Origin: a bacterium
Lineage (GTDB): Bacteria; Sumerlaeota; Sumerlaeia; MVZB01
NCBI GenBank assembly: GCA_021372575.1
Contig: JAJFUE010000118.1
Location: forward strand, 1 to 35,470
Reading direction: 5' to 3'
DNA: 35,470 nucleotides
Shown piece after piece: positions 7,145 through 31,615 of the stretch. Position numbers and translations under genes: made by a program. How positions within the stretch are numbered: position 1 is the first letter of the stretch; every line of letters starts with the position of its first letter. The notes below the pieces were generated by a model that saw nothing but the letters and a program-made list of their open reading frames with translations, did no database searches and was not told where the DNA came from.

Positions 7145-8495
7145 GCCGATCCCCGCCGACGTGGCCCTCGACGTTTGCAACGTCAGCAAGCGCTACGAGA
7201 TCTACAGCAAACCGACGTACCGCCTGAAGCAGATCCTGTGGGGCGGCCGGCGCAACTACCACACCGAGTTCTGGGCGCTCAACGATATCAACTTTCGCGT
7301 CGAGCGCGGCGAGGCGCTCGGCATCATCGGCCGCAACGGCGCCGGCAAAAGCACGCTCCTGCAGGTTATTGCCGGCACGCTCAAGCCCACCACCGGCGAA
7401 GTCAACGTCCGCGGCCGCGTCACGGCCCTCCTCGAGCTCGGCTCCGGCTTCAACCTCGAGTTTACCGGCTGGGAAAACGTCCGCCTCAACGGCGCGATTC
7501 TGGGACTCTCGCAGGCCGAGATCGAAAACCGCCTCGATGCCATCGCCGCCTTCGCCGACATCGGCGATTTCATCAACCAACCGGTCAAAACCTATTCGAC
7601 CGGCATGCTCGTGCGCCTCGCGTTCGCGGTGCAGGTGCAGGTCGATCCCGACATCCTCATCATCGACGAGGCCCTCGCCGTCGGCGACGTCGCGTTCCAG
7701 TCCAAGTGCATGAGCCGGATGAAAAAGCTCATCGACCGCGGCGTGGTCATCATCCTCGTCACGCACGATGTCGGCGCCGTGCGCACGCTCTGCAACCGCG
7801 CGATCTGGCTCGACAAGGGCCGCATGCGTGAAGTGGGCGCCCCGCTTCAGGTCACGTCGCAATACGTTCAGCACCTGTTCACCGAAGAGACCGGCCAGCA
7901 GCAGCCCGAGGAGCCGGTCCACGGCGTTCAACCCGTCACGATCGCGCCGGCCGCCGAAGACCCGAACGCCCGCAAGCTCACCGATTTCTCGACTCGCAGC
8001 GACCTCGTGCGGTGGGGCTCGGGCGAAATCCGCGTCGAAGGCGTCTCGATCGACAACGGCACGCCGGCCGCCGAGCCGCTCTTCGAATACGGCGACACGC
8101 TGCACATCGAGGCGAAGTTCCGCGCCGTCAAGGATGTCGATTCCCATGACATCGGATTCGGTTTCGCCTTCCGGAACATGAACGGTCTGGATATCATCAC
8201 CTACACGACTCACGACGCCGGCCTGCGCATTCCGCCGCTCAAGGCCGGCCAGGCGGTGCGATTCGCATTCGAGCTGAAGAACATCCTGTTCGCCACCGCC
8301 TACGCGCTGGTCGTCAACGTCGAGGAAGTGCGCGGCCCGCTCGACCGCCATTACTACGATTTCGTCGAGAACGCGATCATGTTCAAGGTCGTCTCGGAGT
8401 TCCAGATTTTCTCGGCCGTCCTGCCGCCGGTCCGCCAACTGGCGTATGAAGTCGAGCCTTTGCCGTCCGAGGGTTCCCATGTCGCCAGTCGCTGA
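7134..8495 (+). CDS. wzt: Polysaccharide ABC exporter ATPase with C-terminal glycan-binding domain (Wzt type)
   Basis: A 453-residue protein that would energise export of the finished glycan. The ATPase half has Walker A GRNGAGKST (66-74), signature YSTGM (154-158), Walker B ILIIDEA (174-180) followed by AVGD, and the H-loop LVTHD. After a linker rich in Gln, Glu and Pro, residues from about 290 to 440 form a beta-rich domain matching the Wzt C-terminal family (RWGSGEIRVEGVSIDNG... FEYGDTLHIEAKF). In E. coli O9a-type systems this domain recognises a modified non-reducing end of the O-chain and gates export. Its presence suggests export depends on a terminal modification made by a neighbour, and the next gene starts with methyltransferase domains. 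It overlaps the permease by 11 bp and the following gene by 17 bp. Confidence 0.93.
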   Translation: MSSEPIPADVALDVCNVSKRYEIYSKPTYRLKQILWGGRRNYHTEFWALNDINFRVERGEALGIIGRNGAGKSTLLQVIAGTLKPTTGEVNVRGRVTALLELGSGFNLEFTGWENVRLNGAILGLSQAEIENRLDAIAAFADIGDFINQPVKTYSTGMLVRLAFAVQVQVDPDILIIDEALAVGDVAFQSKCMSRMKKLIDRGVVIILVTHDVGAVRTLCNRAIWLDKGRMREVGAPLQVTSQYVQHLFTEETGQQQPEEPVHGVQPVTIAPAAEDPNARKLTDFSTRSDLVRWGSGEIRVEGVSIDNGTPAAEPLFEYGDTLHIEAKFRAVKDVDSHDIGFGFAFRNMNGLDIITYTTHDAGLRIPPLKAGQAVRFAFELKNILFATAYALVVNVEEVRGPLDRHYYDFVENAIMFKVVSEFQIFSAVLPPVRQLAYEVEPLPSEGSHVASR

Positions 8496-11400
8496 ATCAC
8501 GCCAATGGTGGGATGAACGTTTCAAGGACCCGGCCGACGCCGAAGCCGCCCGCCGGCGCACGCGGACGCTGATGGAGGCCCTGATCGGCGCGATCCCGGG
8601 CCCCGAGCGCGCGAAGCTGGAAACGGAAGCGGTTCAGATTCTGGACTGGGGATGCGGCTTGGGCGACGGGACGGAGGCGCTCGCCCAAAGTTTTCCGAAC
8701 GCGCGCGTCAGAGGTCTCGAGCTGGCGGCGTTCATCGTTGACCAGGCGAAACAGCTTCACCCGGACCTGGAGTTCGCCGAGTCTGGCGACGGCACGATCG
8801 CAGAACCGGTCGATGTGATCGTTGCCTGCAACTGCCTGCAATTCCTCGATCGCCCGATCGAGGCGGTCGCGCGGCTGATACCATCCTGCCGCGACCTGTT
8901 CGTCGCGATCGTTCCGTTCAATGAATTCCCGCTGCCCGACGGCCACCGCAGCCAGTTCCGCGAGGAATCGTTCCCGGCGCGGCTTGCCGGATTCAGCCTC
9001 ATTTCGCGCGAGGAGATCGAGACGGCCGGGGCGCGCTATATCGCGGCGTTTTACGGCTCGTCGGCGCACATGACCCGCCGCAACGAAGCGATCGGCAAGC
9101 TCGACGAACGCAAGAAGTGGGACGATTATTACCGGGCGCTGCCGACGATGGAAGAGACCGACGCGCTGCGCTCGACGGGGCTGGAGTTCATCGAACTGGT
9201 TCACGACCTGCTGCCCGACGGCGGCAGCACGCTCGAGGCCGGCTGCGGCGCCGGCTGGCAAAGCCTCGCCCTCGCCCGCACGCGCCAATACGACGTCAAC
9301 CTGCTCGACTTCTCGGCGGAGGCGCTTTCGCACGCGCGCCGCTACTTCGAGCGCGAATCGCTCAAGGCCAAATTTGAGCAGGGCGACGTATTCACGACCG
9401 GCGAGCCCCAATACGACCTCGTCTTCAACTCCGGCGTGCTCGAGCATTACACGTTCGAGGAACAGGTCCGCTTCGTGCGCGGCATGGCCAGCCGCAGCAA
9501 GGGATTCGTGCTGGCGCTCGTGCCCAACCGCGACTGCTACTGGTACTGGATCTGGCGGCTTCAGGAAGAGGCGCGCGGCGCGTGGCCGTACGGCAAGGAA
9601 GTCCCCCAGGCCGACCTCAGCGAGGCGTTCAAGGAAGCCGGCCTGCACAACGTCTGCCACGCCTGGCTCGGCGCGGACTGGTCCGAGGATTTCATCCTCA
9701 ACCTGCGCAACATCGACGAGGAGCTGCGCCAGGCGATCCTCGCCGTCCACCGCAACAAGATCATCCCCGCCGCCCAGCGCGCGTATCTCTACGTTGCGCT
9801 CGGCATGGTGGGCAAGGAACAGCGCCCGATCGCCGGCAATCGCTGGAAAAAGCGCGGCCAGGGCGAGCGCCTGAGCGAGTCCGAAGCCAACGCGCGCCTC
9901 GTCGATGCCCTGGCGCTTGTCGTAAACGGGCAGACGACCGCCAGCCGGCTGATGGCTGAAGCCGAGGGCCTCAAGCAACAGATCGCGCAACGCGATCAGA
10001 TCATCACCGAGCGTGACCGCTTAATCGCCGAGCGCGACCATCTGATTGCCGAGCGCGATCAGATCATCGCCGAGCGCGACCGGCAGATCGCCGAACGCGC
10101 CGAAATGGACAACAACCTCCTGTGGAAGGCGAACCAGTACGGCGAGCTGGCCGGCGCGATCGTCGATCGCGACAAGCGCATCGCCGGGCTTGAGGTCCTG
10201 CTCACGAAGCAGTTGCCGGAACTCGGCGAAATGCACAACCGGTTCGCGGAGGCGCTTTCGGAAACCGAACGGCTGAAATCCGGGCTCGACGCCAGCCTGC
10301 GGCAATCCGCCGAAACGGCGTATGTTCTGGCCGAACACGACCAGTCGGCCAACCTGCAAGCCTCGCTGCTCACCGAGGCGCGGACCGAGATAGAGAAGCT
10401 CCGGACGGAACTGGGCAAGAACAGGATTCCGTTCGAGGAACACGTGCGCCTCATGGCCGAACGCGACGAGGAAACCGCGCGCATGGCAAGGGTCCTGGAC
10501 GAATTCCGGCGCGAGCTTCAGGAGCGCGACACGCGAATCGCGGAGATGGCCGACCGGATCGCCGATCGTGACGCGGCCATGATGGACATGCAGGAAGACG
10601 CCGCAGTGCTCCACGCCCGACTGCAACAAGAGGAAATGATGTCCCAGCTCAAAACCGAACAATTGGACAACTTGCAATCGCAACTCGGAGAACTCAAGAA
10701 CACCGTCGGCCGGCAGCAACAGGAACTCGATCGGCTCAATGCGACCGTCAAGAGCCAGCTTGAACGGCTTCGCGTCCAAGAGCAGGACCTGCGCCAGGCA
10801 AAACTGCTCAAGGAGCGGCTCAACAGCGAGCTGTATCACGCCATCCAGCACGGCAACGAACTCGAACAAAACCTTCAGACCGTCCTGAACAGCCCCGGCT
10901 GGCGATTCGCGCTCAAGGTGGCCGCGGCGCGCAAGAAGATCCTGCCGCTCGGCGGCCGCCGGGATCGCCTGTTCAACTGGACCGTGCGGAAATTGCTCAG
11001 GCGCCCGGCGCCGCCGCAACAGCAGATTGCCGCGCCCGGCGAGCTGCGCTTCGGCGACTGGAAGGTCGAGACCAACATCGCCGAGTCGCGCCGCGACAGG
11101 CCGATGCTGCTCGAAGAGGACAAGGGCGTGCGCTTTCCGCTGAGCGACCCCGAGCGCGGCGACGCGATCGTGTTCAGCCGCACGATTTCCGTCGAGCCCG
11201 GCCGCAACTACAAGATCATGGCCGAGATCCCCAGCAACTATCCGAACGAGGCGTTCGCGGGCCGGTTCGAGAAGCGGCTCTACGTCGAGGGCGAGCTTGT
11301 CTGGTCGCGCGACCTGTGCCTGCCGGCCGACTGCCCGGTCCTGGTGAACCACACGCCCAGGCAGGATCGGATCGACGTGCGCGTCGAAATGGCGACGATC

Positions 11401-13647
11401 GGCGATCCCGAGCCGGGCTGGGATTGGGGCAAGGTTGCCGCGCTGCGCGTGGGCCTGTTCCAGCACCAGCAGCTCGACGCCATCCTGCCGGTGGTCGCAA
11501 ATCCCGAATTGCAGCGAATCATCATCGACCACGCCCATTGCCGCGGGATCATCGTGTACCCGCCGCTCATCGACTGGGGCTGGATGAAGCAGCGTCCTCA
11601 CCACCTGCTGCAGCAGTTTGCGCGCTCCGGCTACCTCGTCCTGTTCTGCACGCACCAGCTCAAGACCGACAAGGTCAGCGGCTTCAAGGAGGTCGAGCCC
11701 AATCTGTTCCTTGTCGAGAAGGAGGAGACGCTCTACGACCTGCCCGAGCCGTGGATCCTTGTCAGCAATCCGCGCCACCTCGTCACGATCCGCAAGTTCA
11801 ACAAGCCGCGCATCATCTACGATTGCCTCGACAACCTGCGCGTGCATTCGCTCGACGGCGTCCCCGACCCCGACGTGTGGGTCAAGCACAACGAGCTGCT
11901 CTCGGAATCCGAGGTCGTGCTCGTCACGTGCGAGCAGCTTCGCGACGAGGTCGGCAAGGTCCGCCCCGACGCCATCAACTGCCCCAACGCGGTCACGTAC
12001 GAGGATTTCCACCTGACGCACGAGCCGAAGGTCCCGGCCGACCTCGCCCCCATCAAGGCGCTCGGCAAGCCGATTGTCGGCTACTACGGTGCGATGGCGA
12101 AGTGGTTCGACTATGAGCTGCTGCGCGAAGTCGCGCGCATGCGGACGGACCTCGAATTCGTCCTCATCGGCGTCGATTACGATGGCGCGATTCACGAACA
12201 GGGGCTCGACAAGTTCAAGAACATCCACTGGCTCGGCGAGAAGCCGTACGGCGAGCTGCCGGCCTACCTGCACCTTTTCGACGTGGCGACGATCCCGTTC
12301 GTGATCAACGACATCACGATGGCGACCTCGCCGGTCAAGATGTACGAATACATGGCCGGCGGCAAGCCGATCGTCACGACCCCCATGCCTGAATGCGAGC
12401 GCCAGGCGGGCGTGCTGATCGGGGCGACGCCGACCGAGTTCAGCGAAAAACTCGACGATGCGCTCAAGCTCGGCCGCGACGCCGATTACCTCGCGCTGCT
12501 CGACCGCGAGGCGCGCGACAACACGTGGGCCGCCCGCTTCGACAAGATCCACCAAAAGGTGTTCCGCCCGCGGTTTGTGTCGCTCGAACAGGTCGTCGCA
12601 CATGCCGCGCAGCAACGCGGCGCGATGATCTTCCTGCTGTCGATCGGCTGGCGCATCGACCTCTTCCAGCGCCCGCATCACCTCGCGCGCTACTTCAGCC
12701 GCGAAGGCTTCGTCTCGATCTACGACTGCAGCGCGTGGGAGGACGACTTCTTCGGCTTCAAGGAGATCGAGCCGAACCTCTACCTCTATCGCGGGCCGGA
12801 AGAGGAGCTGCGCAAGATCCCCAGCCCGACGCTGTGGACGTTCTGCTACAACTTCGCGCGCAAGGACAACTACCCGGCCGACGCGCGTATCGTGTACGAC
12901 CTCATCGACGACTTTTCGGTCCATCCATTCGATCTCGAAATGATGGCCGCAAACAACGAACGCGCGCTCGAGGAGGCGGACGTGATCTGCTACGTCGCGC
13001 ACCAGCTCGAAAAATTCCTGCCCGGCCGAGACGACAAGATTTACCTGCCCAACGGCGTCGAGGACTGGCGGTTCGCCGCAAAGTGCCTGCCGCCGCCCGA
13101 GGAAGAACATTTCGATCGCCTGATCGCCGAGAAGAAACCGATCATCGGCTACTACGGCGCGATCGCCGAGTGGTTCGACTACGACCTGCTCGCCGAAGTC
13201 GCCCGGCTGCGCCCGGACTGGAACTTCCTGCTCATCGGGCCCGACTACGACAAATCCATGCACGGCCACGAGTCGCTCGACCTGCCGAACGTGACGTGGA
13301 TCGGCCCGCGCGACTACAAGGAAATCCCGTCGTGGCTGCAGGCGTTCGACGTGGCGATGATCCCGTTCAAGATCAACGACATCACGCTCGCCACCTCGCC
13401 GCTCAAGCTCTACGAATACTTCGCCGGCGGCAAGCCGGTCATCACCACGCCGATGCCCGAGTGCATGCTCTACCCCGAGGTGCACATCGTGAAGGACGCG
13501 GCCGAGTTCTCGAAGGCCTTGGACAAGGCGCTCGCCGAAAACCGCGACCCAAAATTCCGCGCCAAAATGCGCGCCCTCGGCGCCGACAACTCCTGGCAGG
13601 CCCGCGTGCGCACCGTCATCGCCGCGCTGGGAAAAGTGAAGGTTTGA
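8479..13647 (+). CDS. Giant fusion: two methyltransferases, long coiled coil, beta domain, two glycosyltransferases
   Basis: About 1722 residues. Order: (a) class I SAM methyltransferase, motif I ILDWGCGLGDG at 54-64; (b) a second methyltransferase, LEAGCGAGW at 252-260, with FNSGVLEHYTFEEQVRFVRG following; (c) a coiled coil from about 500 to 800, starting with repeated 'AERDxxI' units; (d) NSPGWR at 804-809, a motif common ahead of glycan-assembly transferases; (e) a beta-rich segment at about 855-990, possibly carbohydrate-binding; (f) two homologous GT-B-like glycosyltransferases at about 1019-1370 and 1376-1722. These share RPHHL, 'P-I-x-G-Y-Y-G-A', FDYELL/FDYDLL and INDIT.ATSP.K.YEY.AGGKP. 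ATG 8479 is preferred over in-frame ATG 8446 because GAGGG precedes it and it overlaps wzt by only 17 bp. It probably extends, caps and perhaps measures the glycan handed to Wzm/Wzt. Confidence 0.88.
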   Translation: MSPVAESRQWWDERFKDPADAEAARRRTRTLMEALIGAIPGPERAKLETEAVQILDWGCGLGDGTEALAQSFPNARVRGLELAAFIVDQAKQLHPDLEFAESGDGTIAEPVDVIVACNCLQFLDRPIEAVARLIPSCRDLFVAIVPFNEFPLPDGHRSQFREESFPARLAGFSLISREEIETAGARYIAAFYGSSAHMTRRNEAIGKLDERKKWDDYYRALPTMEETDALRSTGLEFIELVHDLLPDGGSTLEAGCGAGWQSLALARTRQYDVNLLDFSAEALSHARRYFERESLKAKFEQGDVFTTGEPQYDLVFNSGVLEHYTFEEQVRFVRGMASRSKGFVLALVPNRDCYWYWIWRLQEEARGAWPYGKEVPQADLSEAFKEAGLHNVCHAWLGADWSEDFILNLRNIDEELRQAILAVHRNKIIPAAQRAYLYVALGMVGKEQRPIAGNRWKKRGQGERLSESEANARLVDALALVVNGQTTASRLMAEAEGLKQQIAQRDQIITERDRLIAERDHLIAERDQIIAERDRQIAERAEMDNNLLWKANQYGELAGAIVDRDKRIAGLEVLLTKQLPELGEMHNRFAEALSETERLKSGLDASLRQSAETAYVLAEHDQSANLQASLLTEARTEIEKLRTELGKNRIPFEEHVRLMAERDEETARMARVLDEFRRELQERDTRIAEMADRIADRDAAMMDMQEDAAVLHARLQQEEMMSQLKTEQLDNLQSQLGELKNTVGRQQQELDRLNATVKSQLERLRVQEQDLRQAKLLKERLNSELYHAIQHGNELEQNLQTVLNSPGWRFALKVAAARKKILPLGGRRDRLFNWTVRKLLRRPAPPQQQIAAPGELRFGDWKVETNIAESRRDRPMLLEEDKGVRFPLSDPERGDAIVFSRTISVEPGRNYKIMAEIPSNYPNEAFAGRFEKRLYVEGELVWSRDLCLPADCPVLVNHTPRQDRIDVRVEMATIGDPEPGWDWGKVAALRVGLFQHQQLDAILPVVANPELQRIIIDHAHCRGIIVYPPLIDWGWMKQRPHHLLQQFARSGYLVLFCTHQLKTDKVSGFKEVEPNLFLVEKEETLYDLPEPWILVSNPRHLVTIRKFNKPRIIYDCLDNLRVHSLDGVPDPDVWVKHNELLSESEVVLVTCEQLRDEVGKVRPDAINCPNAVTYEDFHLTHEPKVPADLAPIKALGKPIVGYYGAMAKWFDYELLREVARMRTDLEFVLIGVDYDGAIHEQGLDKFKNIHWLGEKPYGELPAYLHLFDVATIPFVINDITMATSPVKMYEYMAGGKPIVTTPMPECERQAGVLIGATPTEFSEKLDDALKLGRDADYLALLDREARDNTWAARFDKIHQKVFRPRFVSLEQVVAHAAQQRGAMIFLLSIGWRIDLFQRPHHLARYFSREGFVSIYDCSAWEDDFFGFKEIEPNLYLYRGPEEELRKIPSPTLWTFCYNFARKDNYPADARIVYDLIDDFSVHPFDLEMMAANNERALEEADVICYVAHQLEKFLPGRDDKIYLPNGVEDWRFAAKCLPPPEEEHFDRLIAEKKPIIGYYGAIAEWFDYDLLAEVARLRPDWNFLLIGPDYDKSMHGHESLDLPNVTWIGPRDYKEIPSWLQAFDVAMIPFKINDITLATSPLKLYEYFAGGKPVITTPMPECMLYPEVHIVKDAAEFSKALDKALAENRDPKFRAKMRALGADNSWQARVRTVIAALGKVKV

Positions 13648-14105
13648 TTGAACAGGAGGAAACGGAGGAAACAGAGAGATCCTGCCGGATGGCGGGTTCT
13701 CTGTTTAAGCCTTGTGGTGGATCATCAACGCAATCCAGACTGGGGATGAATAGAGCAGGACTAAATAGTAGATCCATCCTCTGTCTCGTTCATGAACAAT
13801 CCACGCAATGATGATTCGTCCGATGATCAAAGCATCAAATATCATCGCGAAGCGCCCCCGGGCCACTCCGACGTAACACAATACACGGCAAGAAAAGGCT
13901 CTGCAGCAAAAACGAAATGACCATGGCACAAATCAACCATTTATAATTCCAGCCGCCGGCATCGCTCGTATCACCGATAGATCTGAATACAAAAATTTTA
14001 TTCAGCCATGTCAGCATTTTGAATCTTCCAGCACTGGAATCGCGTAATTCTCGGATTTCTCTGTTTTCTCTGTTTCCTCCGTTTCCTCCGTTTCCTCCTG
14101 TTCAA
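13648..14105. repeat. Inverted pair of GGAAAC-type short tandem repeats
   Basis: The left arm (13648-13676) starts directly after the stop codon of the giant gene: TTGAACAGGAGGAAACGGAG and on to GAAACAGAG. The right arm (about 14060-14105) is its reverse complement in expanded form (CTCTGTTTCCTCC, GTTTCCTCC twice, TGTTCAA). A transcript crossing both could fold into a stem of about 25 bp. The interior holds a frameshifted small membrane gene. Further arms of the same word family occur at 14545-14577, 14612-14636 and 14653-14682. Confidence 0.85.
13705..14017 (-). pseudogene. Small membrane protein split by a frameshift
   Basis: Two overlapping minus-strand frames read as one protein of about 103 residues if one G is removed from the G5 run (C5 on the plus strand at 13855-13859). 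The first part (MLTWLNKIFVFRSIG... KWLICAMVISFLLQSLFLPC) holds one hydrophobic helix. The second (FAMIFDALIIGRIIIAWIV... WIYYLVLLYSSPVWIALMIH) adds two more. Neither half makes sense alone. It lies between the facing STR arms at 13648 and 14105 and is lower in GC than the polysaccharide genes. I do not recognise the family. A sequencing or assembly indel in the homopolymer is as likely as a genuine inactivation. Confidence 0.5.
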
Positions 14106-14110
14106 AAATA

Positions 14111-14512
14111 TCATCTGTTTGCCCCGGGCAAAATCAACCGGGTAATCCCATCCGTTAGTTTTTCTTCATGAAAATTGATGAGCAATCCAATCGGAATATC
14201 CATCAGTTTCATGTAACTAAGAAGCTTCGCCTTGTGGATTGGGAGAACCTTTTCAAGCGCCTTGGCTTCGACGAGAACGCATCCTTCCACAAGCACATCG
14301 AATCGCAACGGCTCCTCACGGGTATGTCCCTTATAATTGACCGCAATCAATCTCTGGTTACAGCAATCGAGGTTCCTTAACCCGAGTTCTATCATCATGC
14401 ACCATTCATAAATGGACTCAATGAGTCCTGGTCCCTTGTCGCGATGGACTTCAATAGCTGCGCCAATAATGTTTTCGGTCAGGCCGTCGGCTTTTTTAAA
14501 CAATGGATGCAT
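14111..14512 (-). CDS. GxxExxY family protein (predicted PD-(D/E)XK nuclease fold)
   Basis: The protein from ATG 14512 has 133 residues, the normal length for the GxxExxY family. The name motif is visible in GPGLIESIYEW. The family pattern continues with ENIIGAAIEVH before it, then LRFDVLVEGCVLVEAKALE and LPIHKAKLLSYMKLMDIPIGLLINF. The D...E-x-K arrangement (FDVLVEGCVLVEAKA) fits a PD-(D/E)XK-like nuclease core, which is the usual prediction; biochemical function is unknown. A longer frame reaches 14614, but its extra 34 residues include QQEETEETE, a translation of the GGAAAC repeat tract, so I start at the internal Met. The gene is bordered by arms of this repeat (14060-14105 and 14545-14577) and is lower in GC than its neighbours, which suggests acquisition. 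Confidence 0.85.
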   Translation of the reverse strand: MHPLFKKADGLTENIIGAAIEVHRDKGPGLIESIYEWCMMIELGLRNLDCCNQRLIAVNYKGHTREEPLRFDVLVEGCVLVEAKALEKVLPIHKAKLLSYMKLMDIPIGLLINFHEEKLTDGITRLILPGANR

Positions 14513-14539
14513 GGCGTTGAAAAGAAAGGCAACGGAATT

Positions 14540-14773
14540 AGGAATCTCCGTTTCCTCCGTTTCCTCCTGTTGAAAGAGAATTAAATTCACTCGTTTACGT
14601 CTAAATATGAACAAGAGGTAACGGAGGCAACTGAGATAATCAATTAAAATCTTCGTTTCCTCCTTTTCCTCCTGTTTAAGATAAACGCCTCCCTGATTCA
14701 GGTCATGAGTGATCGTTTAATCCATGGGTTGCGAATCATTTTTCCGGCTGAGAATTCATTCTTTAACACCCTG
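14540..14773. repeat. Further GGAAAC-type tandem-repeat arms
   Basis: CTCCGTTTCCTCCGTTTCCT (14545 onward), AAGAGGTAACGGAGGCAACT (14613 onward, opposite orientation) and CGTTTCCTCCTTTTCCTCCT (14654 onward) are degenerate copies of the word bordering 13648-14105. They lie upstream of the GxxExxY gene and downstream of the double-GT2 gene, which ends at 14774. No other gene is seen in this gap. Confidence 0.75.
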
Positions 14774-20234: not shown

Positions 20235-20454
20235 CTCGTGCTCGTGCTCGTGCTCGTAATCGTAATCGTAATCGAAAGCCTGATCGAAGATTCAATGGCC
20301 GGCGAGGGCGCCGGCCCCACATCGGTGAATATTGCGCGATGTGGCGCCGACGCCCTCGCCGGCGATTCCTGCGCGCACGCGTAAAACCAAAAGTGTTCGA
20401 TTACGATTACGATTACGAGCACGATTACGAGCACGATTACGAGCACGAGCACGA
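20235..20454. repeat. Nested inverted repeats: CGATTACGAGCAC tandem arms around a 27-bp hairpin
   Basis: Outer left arm 20235-20274 is CTCGTG repeated, then TAATCG repeated. Outer right arm 20398-20454 is the reverse-complement word set (CGATTA and CGAGCA units, partly alternating). Inside sits a GC-rich hairpin with 27-bp arms (20298-20324 and 20337-20363), two mismatches and a 12-nt loop. It follows the transaldolase stop codon by 13 bp and may act as a transcript 3' end. No gene lies in the gap up to guaB (20222-20557). Confidence 0.9.
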
Positions 20455-22063: not shown

Positions 22064-22075
22064 CAATCAATGATG

Positions 22076-22178
22076 AATGATGAATGATGAGTGATGAATG
22101 AACGGCCGTCACGCGCCGGTCGCTTTCACTTCATCGTTCATTTGCCATATCATCATTCATCACTCATCATTCATCATT
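22076..22178. repeat. ATGATGA tandem-repeat inverted pair between convergent genes
   Basis: Perfect 26-bp arms at 22076-22101 and 22153-22178, built from ATGATGA and GTGATGA words, with a 51-nt loop. The left tract starts 5 bp after the guaB stop. The right arm contains the TGA stop codon of the opposing MFS gene (22174-22176). Placed between two convergent genes, it could form a hairpin on either transcript. Confidence 0.9.
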
Positions 22179-23322
22179 CCTTGACCGGTTTTCTTCGAAT
22201 CATCACGTGAATGACCCAAATGGCGGCCATGGGGAGCGCGCCGAGCCAGAACGCCGTCGCGGGGCTGCCGGTGAATTTCATGAGAAGGCCGCCGTAAATC
22301 GGCCCCGTCGTCGCCCCCAGCGCCAGCAGCATTTCATGGAAGCCGAGGTTGGACCCTTTTTCAGCCTCGAGCGTCGAGTAATAAATGCTGAGCATGTAGG
22401 CCACCCCGAGCGCCACGCCAACGCCGATGAACGGCAACGCGAGGAGGCCCGGCCTTCCCAGCGTCGCCGTCAAAATCAGCGTCGCGATCAGCAGGCCGTA
22501 CGAAACATGATACGGCGCGTTTCGGAAATGCCAGCGGACGCTGCGCCCCATCAGCGCGAACGTCCCGAGCATCGCCGCGAACCGCAGCACGTGCAGCAAT
22601 GAGATCGTTCCCGGCGCGAGCGGGTCCTCGACGGCCTCGGCGAGCCTCGGGAACAGGTAAATCATCATCCCGCCGACGAAGAAGTTCGAGGCCAGCGCCA
22701 GCCATGCCAGCGCCTTGAAATGGCCGACGCGCGGATGCAGTTCCAATTCCATGTCATCGGCAATCGCCCGGCCGGCCGGCCGGCAAAATCCCACGATCGC
22801 CAGCGCGACGCCAAAATACACCGCCGCGCCGAGGTAAGGCCCGCGCGTGCCGCCGAAGTGGTTGAACAGCCACACGTTCGTCGATGAGCCAAGCATCGCG
22901 CCCACGCACCAGCTGACGTTGAATTTGCCGAGGACCTTGCCGAGCGCGGCCGGGTTGGCGGTCTCGGTCATGAGGCTCATGAACGGCGCCCACCAGCACC
23001 CGAGCAGCGTGAGCTGCAGGATCGACACGATGAGGAGCGAGGTGTAATTGCGCGTCAGCGGCAGGAGCAGCGCCAGCACGATCTGCGAGCCGAGCCCCAC
23101 CAGCAGCCACGGCCGCCGGCCGGTGCGGTCCGAAAGCCGCCCCGCGTAAAACGCCATGATTGCGTAGCCGCCGTTGCTGAGCATGCCCAGGAGACCCAAT
23201 TGAAAACCGCTCGCGGCGAAGCGGTCGCGGGCGTCGATCGGCTGCGTCAACCCTAGCATGAACGCCGCGCATTCGACGAAAAAGGCGGGGACAAGAAAAT
23301 AGATCCTGCGCGAAACGTTCAT
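22174..23322 (-). CDS. Major facilitator superfamily transporter
   Basis: A 382-residue inner-membrane protein with about 11-12 hydrophobic segments. The MFS loop 2-3 signature is clear: YAGRLSDRTGRRPWLLVG. The two halves are separated by a short charged loop (RAIADDMELELHPRVGHFKA). The substrate cannot be predicted. No strong ribosome site is seen ahead of the ATG. Its stop codon lies inside an STR arm. Upstream is another STR pair, which separates it from the GlgC-like gene on the same strand, so it may be transcribed separately. Confidence 0.85.
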   Translation of the reverse strand: MNVSRRIYFLVPAFFVECAAFMLGLTQPIDARDRFAASGFQLGLLGMLSNGGYAIMAFYAGRLSDRTGRRPWLLVGLGSQIVLALLLPLTRNYTSLLIVSILQLTLLGCWWAPFMSLMTETANPAALGKVLGKFNVSWCVGAMLGSSTNVWLFNHFGGTRGPYLGAAVYFGVALAIVGFCRPAGRAIADDMELELHPRVGHFKALAWLALASNFFVGGMMIYLFPRLAEAVEDPLAPGTISLLHVLRFAAMLGTFALMGRSVRWHFRNAPYHVSYGLLIATLILTATLGRPGLLALPFIGVGVALGVAYMLSIYYSTLEAEKGSNLGFHEMLLALGATTGPIYGGLLMKFTGSPATAFWLGALPMAAIWVIHVMIRRKPVKE

Positions 23323-23364: not shown

Positions 23365-23527
23365 TTCGTGCTCGTGCTCGTAATCGTAATCGAAACCAAA
23401 CCGAACCCCGGACACCTGTCTCGATGATGGCGATCGCCGAAAGACTTTTCTCACTCTTTTCATCGCCGATCGCAATCGACCATCTCGAATGCGTGATCGA
23501 TTACGATTACGATTACGAGCACGATTG
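23365..23527. repeat. CGATTACGAGCAC tandem-repeat inverted pair, second locus
   Basis: Left arm 23365-23392 (TTCGTGCTCGTGCTCG then TAATCG units) and right arm 23498-23527 (CGATTA units then CGAGCACGATTG) face each other. Between them is a weaker internal stem (GCGATCGCCGA at 23430-23440 with TCGCCGATCGC at 23463-23473). The word is the same as at 20235-20454 and 31551-31592. It lies 12 bp beyond the stop of the minus-strand GlgC-like gene. Confidence 0.85.
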
Positions 23528-24751: not shown

Positions 24752-25160
24752 GATCGAAACTCCTTCGCAACAATCATAGTTTAGCAGCATGAATGGGGCA
24801 TACCAAGAGCGAAGTGCTGAGGCCGGATCCAAGTCCTGAGTCCTGAGTGCTGAGTCCTGAGTTGTTGTTAAATCTCGATAAAACCAAGGTCGTGGATACA
24901 AATTTCGGGGATGGGCCGCTTGACCTTACATTTCCGTTTCCGCCAGGTGACCACCGGCGCGCTGAAGGCGCGAAAGAAAGTTGAATCCTGCGGTACCGTC
25001 GTTTCTTGCCAACTCCCATGGTCCCATCGGTCCCATCGGTCCCATCAGTCCCCATGGTCCCATCATTCCCATAACTCCCATTTGTTCTTAACTGACCCTT
25101 CCAGCCGGTCGATAAGATTACTGGCTGATCCTTAGAAGGCCTGAAGGAAAGGGTTTTGTC
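24752..25160. repeat. Divergent gap with three repeat types
   Basis: The 409-bp region between the GlgC-like gene and lepB holds no credible gene. It contains a TGAGTCC-type tandem tract (24833-24861), one GCGCTGAAGGCGCGAAAGAA element (24959-24978) like that in the 3198-3247 palindrome, and a nine-base GGTCCCATC tandem tract (25012-25081). Promoters for both divergent genes should lie here, but I see no convincing box. Confidence 0.7.
25012..25081. repeat. GGTCCCATC nine-base tandem repeat
   Basis: About seven degenerate copies of GGTCCCATC / ACTCCCATN, interrupted by one CCCCATGG variant. There are no spacers, so it is not a CRISPR. It is a single tract without a facing partner in the window, located about 80 bp before the lepB start. 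Confidence 0.85.
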
Positions 25161-25769: not shown

Positions 25770-25811
25770 GCAATAGGCTCTATTGCACTCCGCATTCCGC
25801 GCTCCGCACTC
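25770..25811. repeat. Small hairpin and CTCCGCATTCCGC tandem word between convergent genes
   Basis: GCAATAG/CTATTGC (25770-25786, 3-nt loop) is followed by GCACTCCGCATTCCGCGCTC and CGCACTC (25785-25811). The same word in reverse orientation occupies the wecB-wzm gap (6249-6270). It lies between the 3' ends of lepB and the RlpA-like gene and might serve as a weak bidirectional terminator. Confidence 0.5.
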
Positions 25812-31479: not shown

Positions 31480-31615
31480 GTGAATTGTGGATCGTGGATC
31501 GTGAATAACGTAATGCCAACGCACGAGGTGGGAGAACCGATCACCTGTTTCGATTACGATTACGATTACGAGCACGAGCACGAGCACGATTGAGTTCCCA
31601 TCCACCATTCACGAT
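31480..31615. repeat. GTGGATC and CGATTACGAGCAC tandem words after the terminator
   Basis: GTGAATTGTGGATCGTGGAT at 31480 onward is a GTGGATC word tract whose ATCGTGAAT (31498-31506) is matched in reverse by ATTCACGAT (31607-31615). Between them is a clean tract at 31551-31592 of CGATTA units followed by CGAGCA units and CGATTG, the same word as at 20398 and 23498. Confidence 0.85.

Follow-up and report, generated by a model that had tools for sequence, protein, structure and literature searches.

Word-armed GxxExxY genes as candidate mobile elements of bacterial genomes

INTRODUCTION

Does a small nuclease-like gene that lies between tracts of a repeated word form one unit with those tracts? 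The question is raised by a contig from a bacterium of the phylum Sumerlaeota (GenBank assembly GCA_021372575.1, contig JAJFUE010000118.1), of which we analyzed positions 1 to 35,470 (35,470 nucleotides, here called the window). On the minus strand, an open reading frame (ORF) spanning 14111-14614 sits between tracts of the word GGAGGAAAC, and its product scores above the curated cut-offs of both TIGR04256 (126 bits; E, 8.8e-37; cut-off, 35) and PF13366 (116.5 bits; E, 1.1e-33; cut-off, 22), the GxxExxY family. The PD-(D/E)XK residues are E22, D62, E72, and K74, and the site is intact. We lean toward reading GxxExxY genes and their repeats as self-contained, hairpin-ended mobile elements whose nuclease would act on its own words, with solo hairpins as derivatives resembling miniature inverted-repeat transposable elements. 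Sequence comparisons show that gene and words are associated, that the words are specific to protein clades, and that the unit has moved.

RESULTS

Most GxxExxY genes are flanked by inverted word arms

GxxExxY genes were present in 31 of 39 genomes of the taxonomic class, with 91 matches. To each locus we assigned a complementarity score between the 300 nucleotides to the left and the 300 nucleotides to the right of the gene, with a threshold of at least 30. This threshold was reached by 50 of 73 GxxExxY genes of the class, whereas no ParE toxin gene (of 27) did so, and random segments did in 0.96% of cases. A further set of 80 loci from many phyla, which was gathered with a narrower alignment and is therefore biased towards clades A and B (see below), gave 61 of 78 genes against 0.93% of 9,703 random segments. 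The original prediction had staked itself on GxxExxY genes carrying more flanking tracts than ordinary genes do, and this is what we found: only 6 of 647 other ORFs of at least 100 amino acids on the same contigs were bracketed in this way, at least two of those six being GxxExxY genes themselves.

The arms are built of about three words each; these recur every 8 to 10 nucleotides and have a heptamer core, in most cases CRCNRAK. Arms match their own partner (median score, 44.5) better than the arms of other elements (median, 18), and the own partner was the best match in 71 of 110 cases. The original prediction held that other proteins of this family often carry translated repeats at the N terminus; open frames that extend upstream of the domain by at least 15 codons are common (85 of 117 loci). 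A search of the open-access literature (subscription papers lay outside its scope) found no paper describing a GxxExxY-repeat element, and to that extent the suggestion of an undescribed gene-repeat system holds.

Word type follows the protein clade

We distinguished three word classes, A (ACAGRAGG/AACRRAG), B (CRCNRAG), and C (CRCNRAT), the last seen only in this phylum. On a protein tree of 152 rows, 45 of them unlabelled for word class, word type required 3 changes, compared with a mean of 22.9 when labels were shuffled; none of 200 shuffles was as low. Host phylum required 47 to 52 changes on the same tree.

Tracts accompany the gene

In the window genome, the pattern GGAGGAAACGGAGGAAAC was found 95 times with at most two mismatches, compared with once for the reversed pattern, so the abundance of these tracts is not due to chance. 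About 30 of the matches (counted by eye) make up hairpins, and in every one the purine-rich word comes first. The genome holds two further GxxExxY genes. One, located inside the atp operon, is framed by inverted arms of a different word, ACGCCAAGACGCCAAGAACGCCAAGA, and the other adjoins tracts of the CGGATGAA type; the genome has one gene for each of the word classes A, B, and C, each with its own word. Some of the dispersed repeats are hairpins nested within hairpins. Separately, we observed a composite dispersed repeat (loci L243-L262) built of nested hairpins of CACGAAA, GCAGAG, and GGAGGAAAC words and ending at GGATAGTAGTAC, with more than 10 copies that vary in word number.

Across the class, we counted 332 triple-word tracts of types B and C among the 31 genomes that have a GxxExxY gene and 4 among the 8 that lack one (Mann-Whitney P = 0.005). 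The class A word GGAGGAAAC occurred 108 times in the window genome but 0 to 3 times in each of 38 relatives of the class, the level of the reversed control. The window gene is the only class A gene of its genome, and no class A gene was seen in those 38 relatives. Among the loci fetched from many phyla, the nearest relatives of the window protein belong to Verrucomicrobiota and Planctomycetota, which suggests that the gene was gained horizontally and that hairpins then multiplied in a burst. The window lineage probably acquired its GGAGGAAAC element from one of these two phyla, and some 30 or more solo hairpins would then have arisen from it.

Movement of the unit

Two loci of one genome (G012) have a single block in common, 468 bp long and 95.7% identical, that comprises the arms and the gene; the flanks are unrelated. 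The spacer between atpG and atpD holds an element in the window genome, is short and empty in many relatives of the class, and contains a heptamer hairpin in one relative (G017) and a CACAGAG arm in another (G006). In a further relative (G009; locus L264), this spacer carries about 900 bp of inserted coding sequence of another kind. Other pairs of sister species keep the element in synteny; it is thus also capable of vertical inheritance. From these comparisons, we regard mobility of the arm-gene-arm unit as well supported. The original prediction that the gene is physically tied to its repeats fits with word type following the protein clade, with tracts occurring where the gene does, and with the joint movement of gene and arms.

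Several vehicles of movement were considered and rejected. GxxExxY genes were absent from 50,697 phage records and present in only 7 of 72,556 plasmid records, and we rejected carriage by phages or plasmids on these counts. A Bacteroides finegoldii record that is labelled a plasmid carries chromosome-like genes, and its GxxExxY element (L293, 2926-3396), with CACAGAG arms, lies between radA and a gene for an FAD-dependent protein. Movement by reverse transcription was rejected because the reverse transcriptase domain PF00078 was not found in the window genome or in many element-rich genomes, and a classical DDE transposon with terminal inverted repeats was rejected because there was neither a DDE transposase domain nor a signal of target-site duplication.

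The window copy

The features around the window gene are as follows.

14111-14512, minus strand: GxxExxY gene with ATG start, about 133 amino acids; conserved domain at 14135-14482 (TIGR04256, PF13366; catalytic E, D, and ExK)
14513-14614, minus strand: upstream open extension from a TTG, which translates the arm as QQEETEETE; the domain match begins only at residue 45
14545-14572, minus strand: 5' arm, CAACAGGAGGAAACGGAGGAAACGGAGA in gene sense (sequence and Tandem Repeats Finder [TRF]; position and polarity typical of 5' arms at related loci)
14058-14104, minus strand: 3'-side tract with the same word and polarity as the 5' arm, not inverted here (sequence and TRF)
14609-14677, no strand assigned: full solo hairpin built of the same word, close upstream of the gene (sequence; pattern matches at 14614 on the plus strand and 14655 on the minus strand)
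13650-13708, plus strand: tract of the same word (13650-13679), with polarity opposite to the 3'-side tract, and a short partner arm (sequence)
13705-14017, minus strand: two overlapping short frames for a hydrophobic protein, between tracts (ORF translation)

The original prediction placed the gene between short tandem repeats. The tracts on both sides are there, but they are mostly hairpin or inverted-repeat arms rather than plain tandem repeats. It also noted that the longer frame translates the repeat, and the frame from the TTG at 14614 does read through the right-hand tract. The ATG at 14512 is the likelier start because the conserved domain begins so far downstream of the TTG, and the extension at 14513-14614 is probably not part of the real protein.

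The tracts adjoining the gene share their polarity, and the opposite copy stands at 13650-13708, so the window copy is rearranged relative to the usual order of arm, gene, and inverted arm. About 350 bp with the two hydrophobic frames separates the gene-side tracts from the opposite-polarity tract. A Pfam search with these frames gave no match; they look decayed, and their membership of the element is uncertain. No syntenic empty site for the window locus was found among the relatives. The tract at 13650-13708 begins right after the stop codon of the upstream glycosyltransferase/methyltransferase ORF (8446-13647). This ORF encodes 1,733 amino acids, in which methyltransferase domains are fused to a coiled region and to two glycosyltransferase domains. 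Elsewhere in the window, hexamer tracts (CGATTA/CGAGCA), which represent a further word class, form inverted pairs at 20236-20274, 20398-20454, 23366-23526, and 31551-31591, and no partner gene was identified for them.

Predicted fold of the protein

An AlphaFold2 model of the protein was of high confidence (predicted local distance difference test score, 96.5). The best solved match in a structure search was SSO0001, a Cas4 protein (probability, 1.00; E, 3e-4), with a template modeling score of only 0.47, indicating a partial match; the next matches were a Cas4-family protein and lambda exonuclease. The fold is thus predicted to be Cas4/lambda-exonuclease-like. The catalytic residues are complete in 146 of 152 relatives.

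Four-helix-bundle genes share the layout

Genes of the four-helix-bundle family TIGR02436, to which the ORF found in 23S rRNA intervening sequences (IVS) belongs, are bracketed by inverted arms at 20 of 29 loci in the same genomes (L103-L132). Their arms consist of heptamers alone, with a period of 7 in 22 of 32 cases, unlike the arms of GxxExxY genes with periods of 8 to 10. These elements form a class parallel to GxxExxY and are likely related to the 23S rRNA IVS. In the window, heptamer tracts of the four-helix-bundle type (AATGATG, AGTCCTG, and related words) lie at 22065-22179, 24832-24862, and 25785-25811, as gene-less hairpins or single arms, the last two flanking a signal peptidase gene.

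We know of no nuclease fold among four-helix-bundle proteins, and their sharing the layout is one reason to consider that host replication or repair machinery moves the word hairpins and that GxxExxY is a passenger or a hairpin-binding regulator. The lack of a detectable target-site duplication and the far greater number of solo hairpins than of genes would also fit. We nevertheless consider this unlikely, if the strongest of the alternatives: word type tracks the GxxExxY clade rather than the host and tracts are scarce where the gene is absent, the repeat grammar differs between the two protein families, and the catalytic site of GxxExxY is kept.

Transcription and RNA structure

Among 117 loci, the gene had the orientation of both its neighbors in 54 and ran against both in 6, and the median distance to the upstream neighbor was 108 nucleotides; the gene therefore probably rides on host transcripts. 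In RNA predicted from two related elements, the arms pair as a terminal stem (z scores of -3.6 and -5.2). Rfam covariance models gave no match above the gathering score, only sub-threshold microRNA matches attributable to chance.

Sense orientation within host transcripts and stable terminal stems are also what an RNA-level selfish element would have, one whose arm stem is excised by ribonuclease III (RNase III) and which spreads via RNA. The IVS in Coxiella 23S rRNA has this architecture, with a 28-bp terminal stem, an ORF in the loop, and RNase III excision (PMC4990558). Such a life style is improbable for GxxExxY, however, as the protein is of a DNA-nuclease type, the copies are seen between protein genes and not in rRNA, and PF00078 was missing from several GxxExxY-rich genomes as well as the window genome.

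Toxin-antitoxin and chance explanations

Tandem-repeat RNA holds the ToxN toxin in check, and a small nuclease adjoining tandem repeats could likewise be a toxin-antitoxin or defense module in which repeat RNA restrains the nuclease. PMC10327210 reports Rpn nucleases as toxins and anti-phage proteins. The repeats here are, however, inverted on both flanks and also dispersed alone, gene and repeats moved jointly, and the scarcity in phage and plasmid records is unlike many toxin-antitoxin modules, which makes this explanation very improbable. Finally, although repeat tracts are common in the window genome, we give practically no credence to a coincidence of simple repeats with an ordinary gene, which is contradicted by all control comparisons and by the correspondence of word and protein; slippage of short tandem repeats or chance was rejected by the ParE, random-segment, and same-contig ORF controls.

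DISCUSSION

In our favored reading, that of a self-contained hairpin-ended element, the selfish unit would be about 0.5 kb long and consist of an arm of about three words, the GxxExxY nuclease gene, and the inverted arm. The Cas4/lambda-exonuclease-like protein would recognize its cognate words, as hairpins or single strands, and nick or trim them. New copies of the unit and, in trans, of the gene-less hairpins would then enter intergenic DNA, probably in the course of replication or repair and with no duplication of the target. Expression would probably come from read-through of an upstream host gene, and the arms could pair in the mRNA as a 27- to 29-bp stem that RNase III could excise, which would limit harm to the host.

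It is important to note that several observations weigh against this reading. No target-site duplication or defined junction was detected, and in G012 one end of the homology coincides with an arm, whereas the other lies 14 nucleotides past the opposite arm. Clear arms are missing at about a fifth to a third of GxxExxY genes, and in the window copy no proper inverted 3' arm is present. The word classes were drawn up after the data had been seen, the tree is based on just 116 columns, and the evidence for a clade-specific tract burst comes from one genome. Moreover, four-helix-bundle genes have the same layout without a nuclease, so that a host factor could do the moving. Finally, we infer rather than observe that the nuclease acts on its arms and words and mobilizes hairpins.

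Tentatively, and somewhat against our own expectation, word-armed hairpin elements could make up a superclass of minimal mobile units in bacteria, divided into at least two branches, GxxExxY (heptamer core plus linker) and four-helix bundle (pure heptamers, rRNA IVS included), in which each protein would recognize and renew its own changing word. On the reading proposed here, the widespread GxxExxY family (PF13366), which has had no assigned function, gains a testable role, and the odd translated N termini of its proteins are explained. Unexplained words that litter environmental bacterial genomes (CACAGAG, CACGAAG, CGCAGAG, and others) are now tied to GxxExxY. The four-helix-bundle counterpart may explain a decades-old puzzle, the spread of rRNA intervening sequences.

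Parts of this system resemble known ones. Intergenic tandem heptamers occur as TAACTGA in Beggiatoaceae (PMC4679880) and among cyanobacterial short tandemly repeated repetitive sequences; unlike the words described here, these are direct repeats of one fixed word, and no comparable gene partner was found in PMC4679880. Cas4 and lambda exonuclease share the predicted fold and the active-site layout, including a QxxxY-like motif, but GxxExxY has a minimal core of about 116 amino acids, and no CRISPR or recombinase partner was seen. Rpn proteins (YhgA-like, PF04754; PMC5350276) are likewise PD-(D/E)XK proteins linked to DNA mobility. They are a separate family, however, and also act as toxins. 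To our knowledge, Rpn nucleases have no word arms. The 23S rRNA IVS (S23p, TIGR02436) is similar in size (about 0.45 kb), in its terminal stem of about 28 bp, and in its single small sense ORF within the loop. It differs in that GxxExxY elements encode a nuclease with no match to the S23p four-helix bundle, have tandem-word arms, and lie between protein genes rather than in rRNA helices.

The closest parallel is with repetitive extragenic palindromic (REP) sequences and their REP-associated tyrosine transposases (RAYTs), for which inverted repeats on both flanks, coevolution of gene and repeat, and a repeat abundance linked to the gene have been described (PMC2817692). At the level of the family, GxxExxY likewise has a nuclease gene between two cognate palindromic repeats in inverted orientation (the tracts adjoining the window gene are not inverted), together with gene-repeat coevolution, repeat abundance that goes with the gene, and many solo intergenic repeats. 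However, the RAYT is an IS200/IS605-like HUH Y1 transposase, whereas the protein here is of the PD-(D/E)XK type and matches only PF13366/TIGR04256; REPs are hairpins of 20 to 40 nucleotides with a GTAG head, whereas the arms here are about 30 nucleotides long with three tandem heptamer-core words; and GxxExxY elements are spread over many phyla. Because both nuclease and repeat are unrelated to RAYT and REP, the GxxExxY system would work like REP-RAYT without being a member of it, as a second, non-HUH case in which a nuclease has dispersed palindromes of its own.
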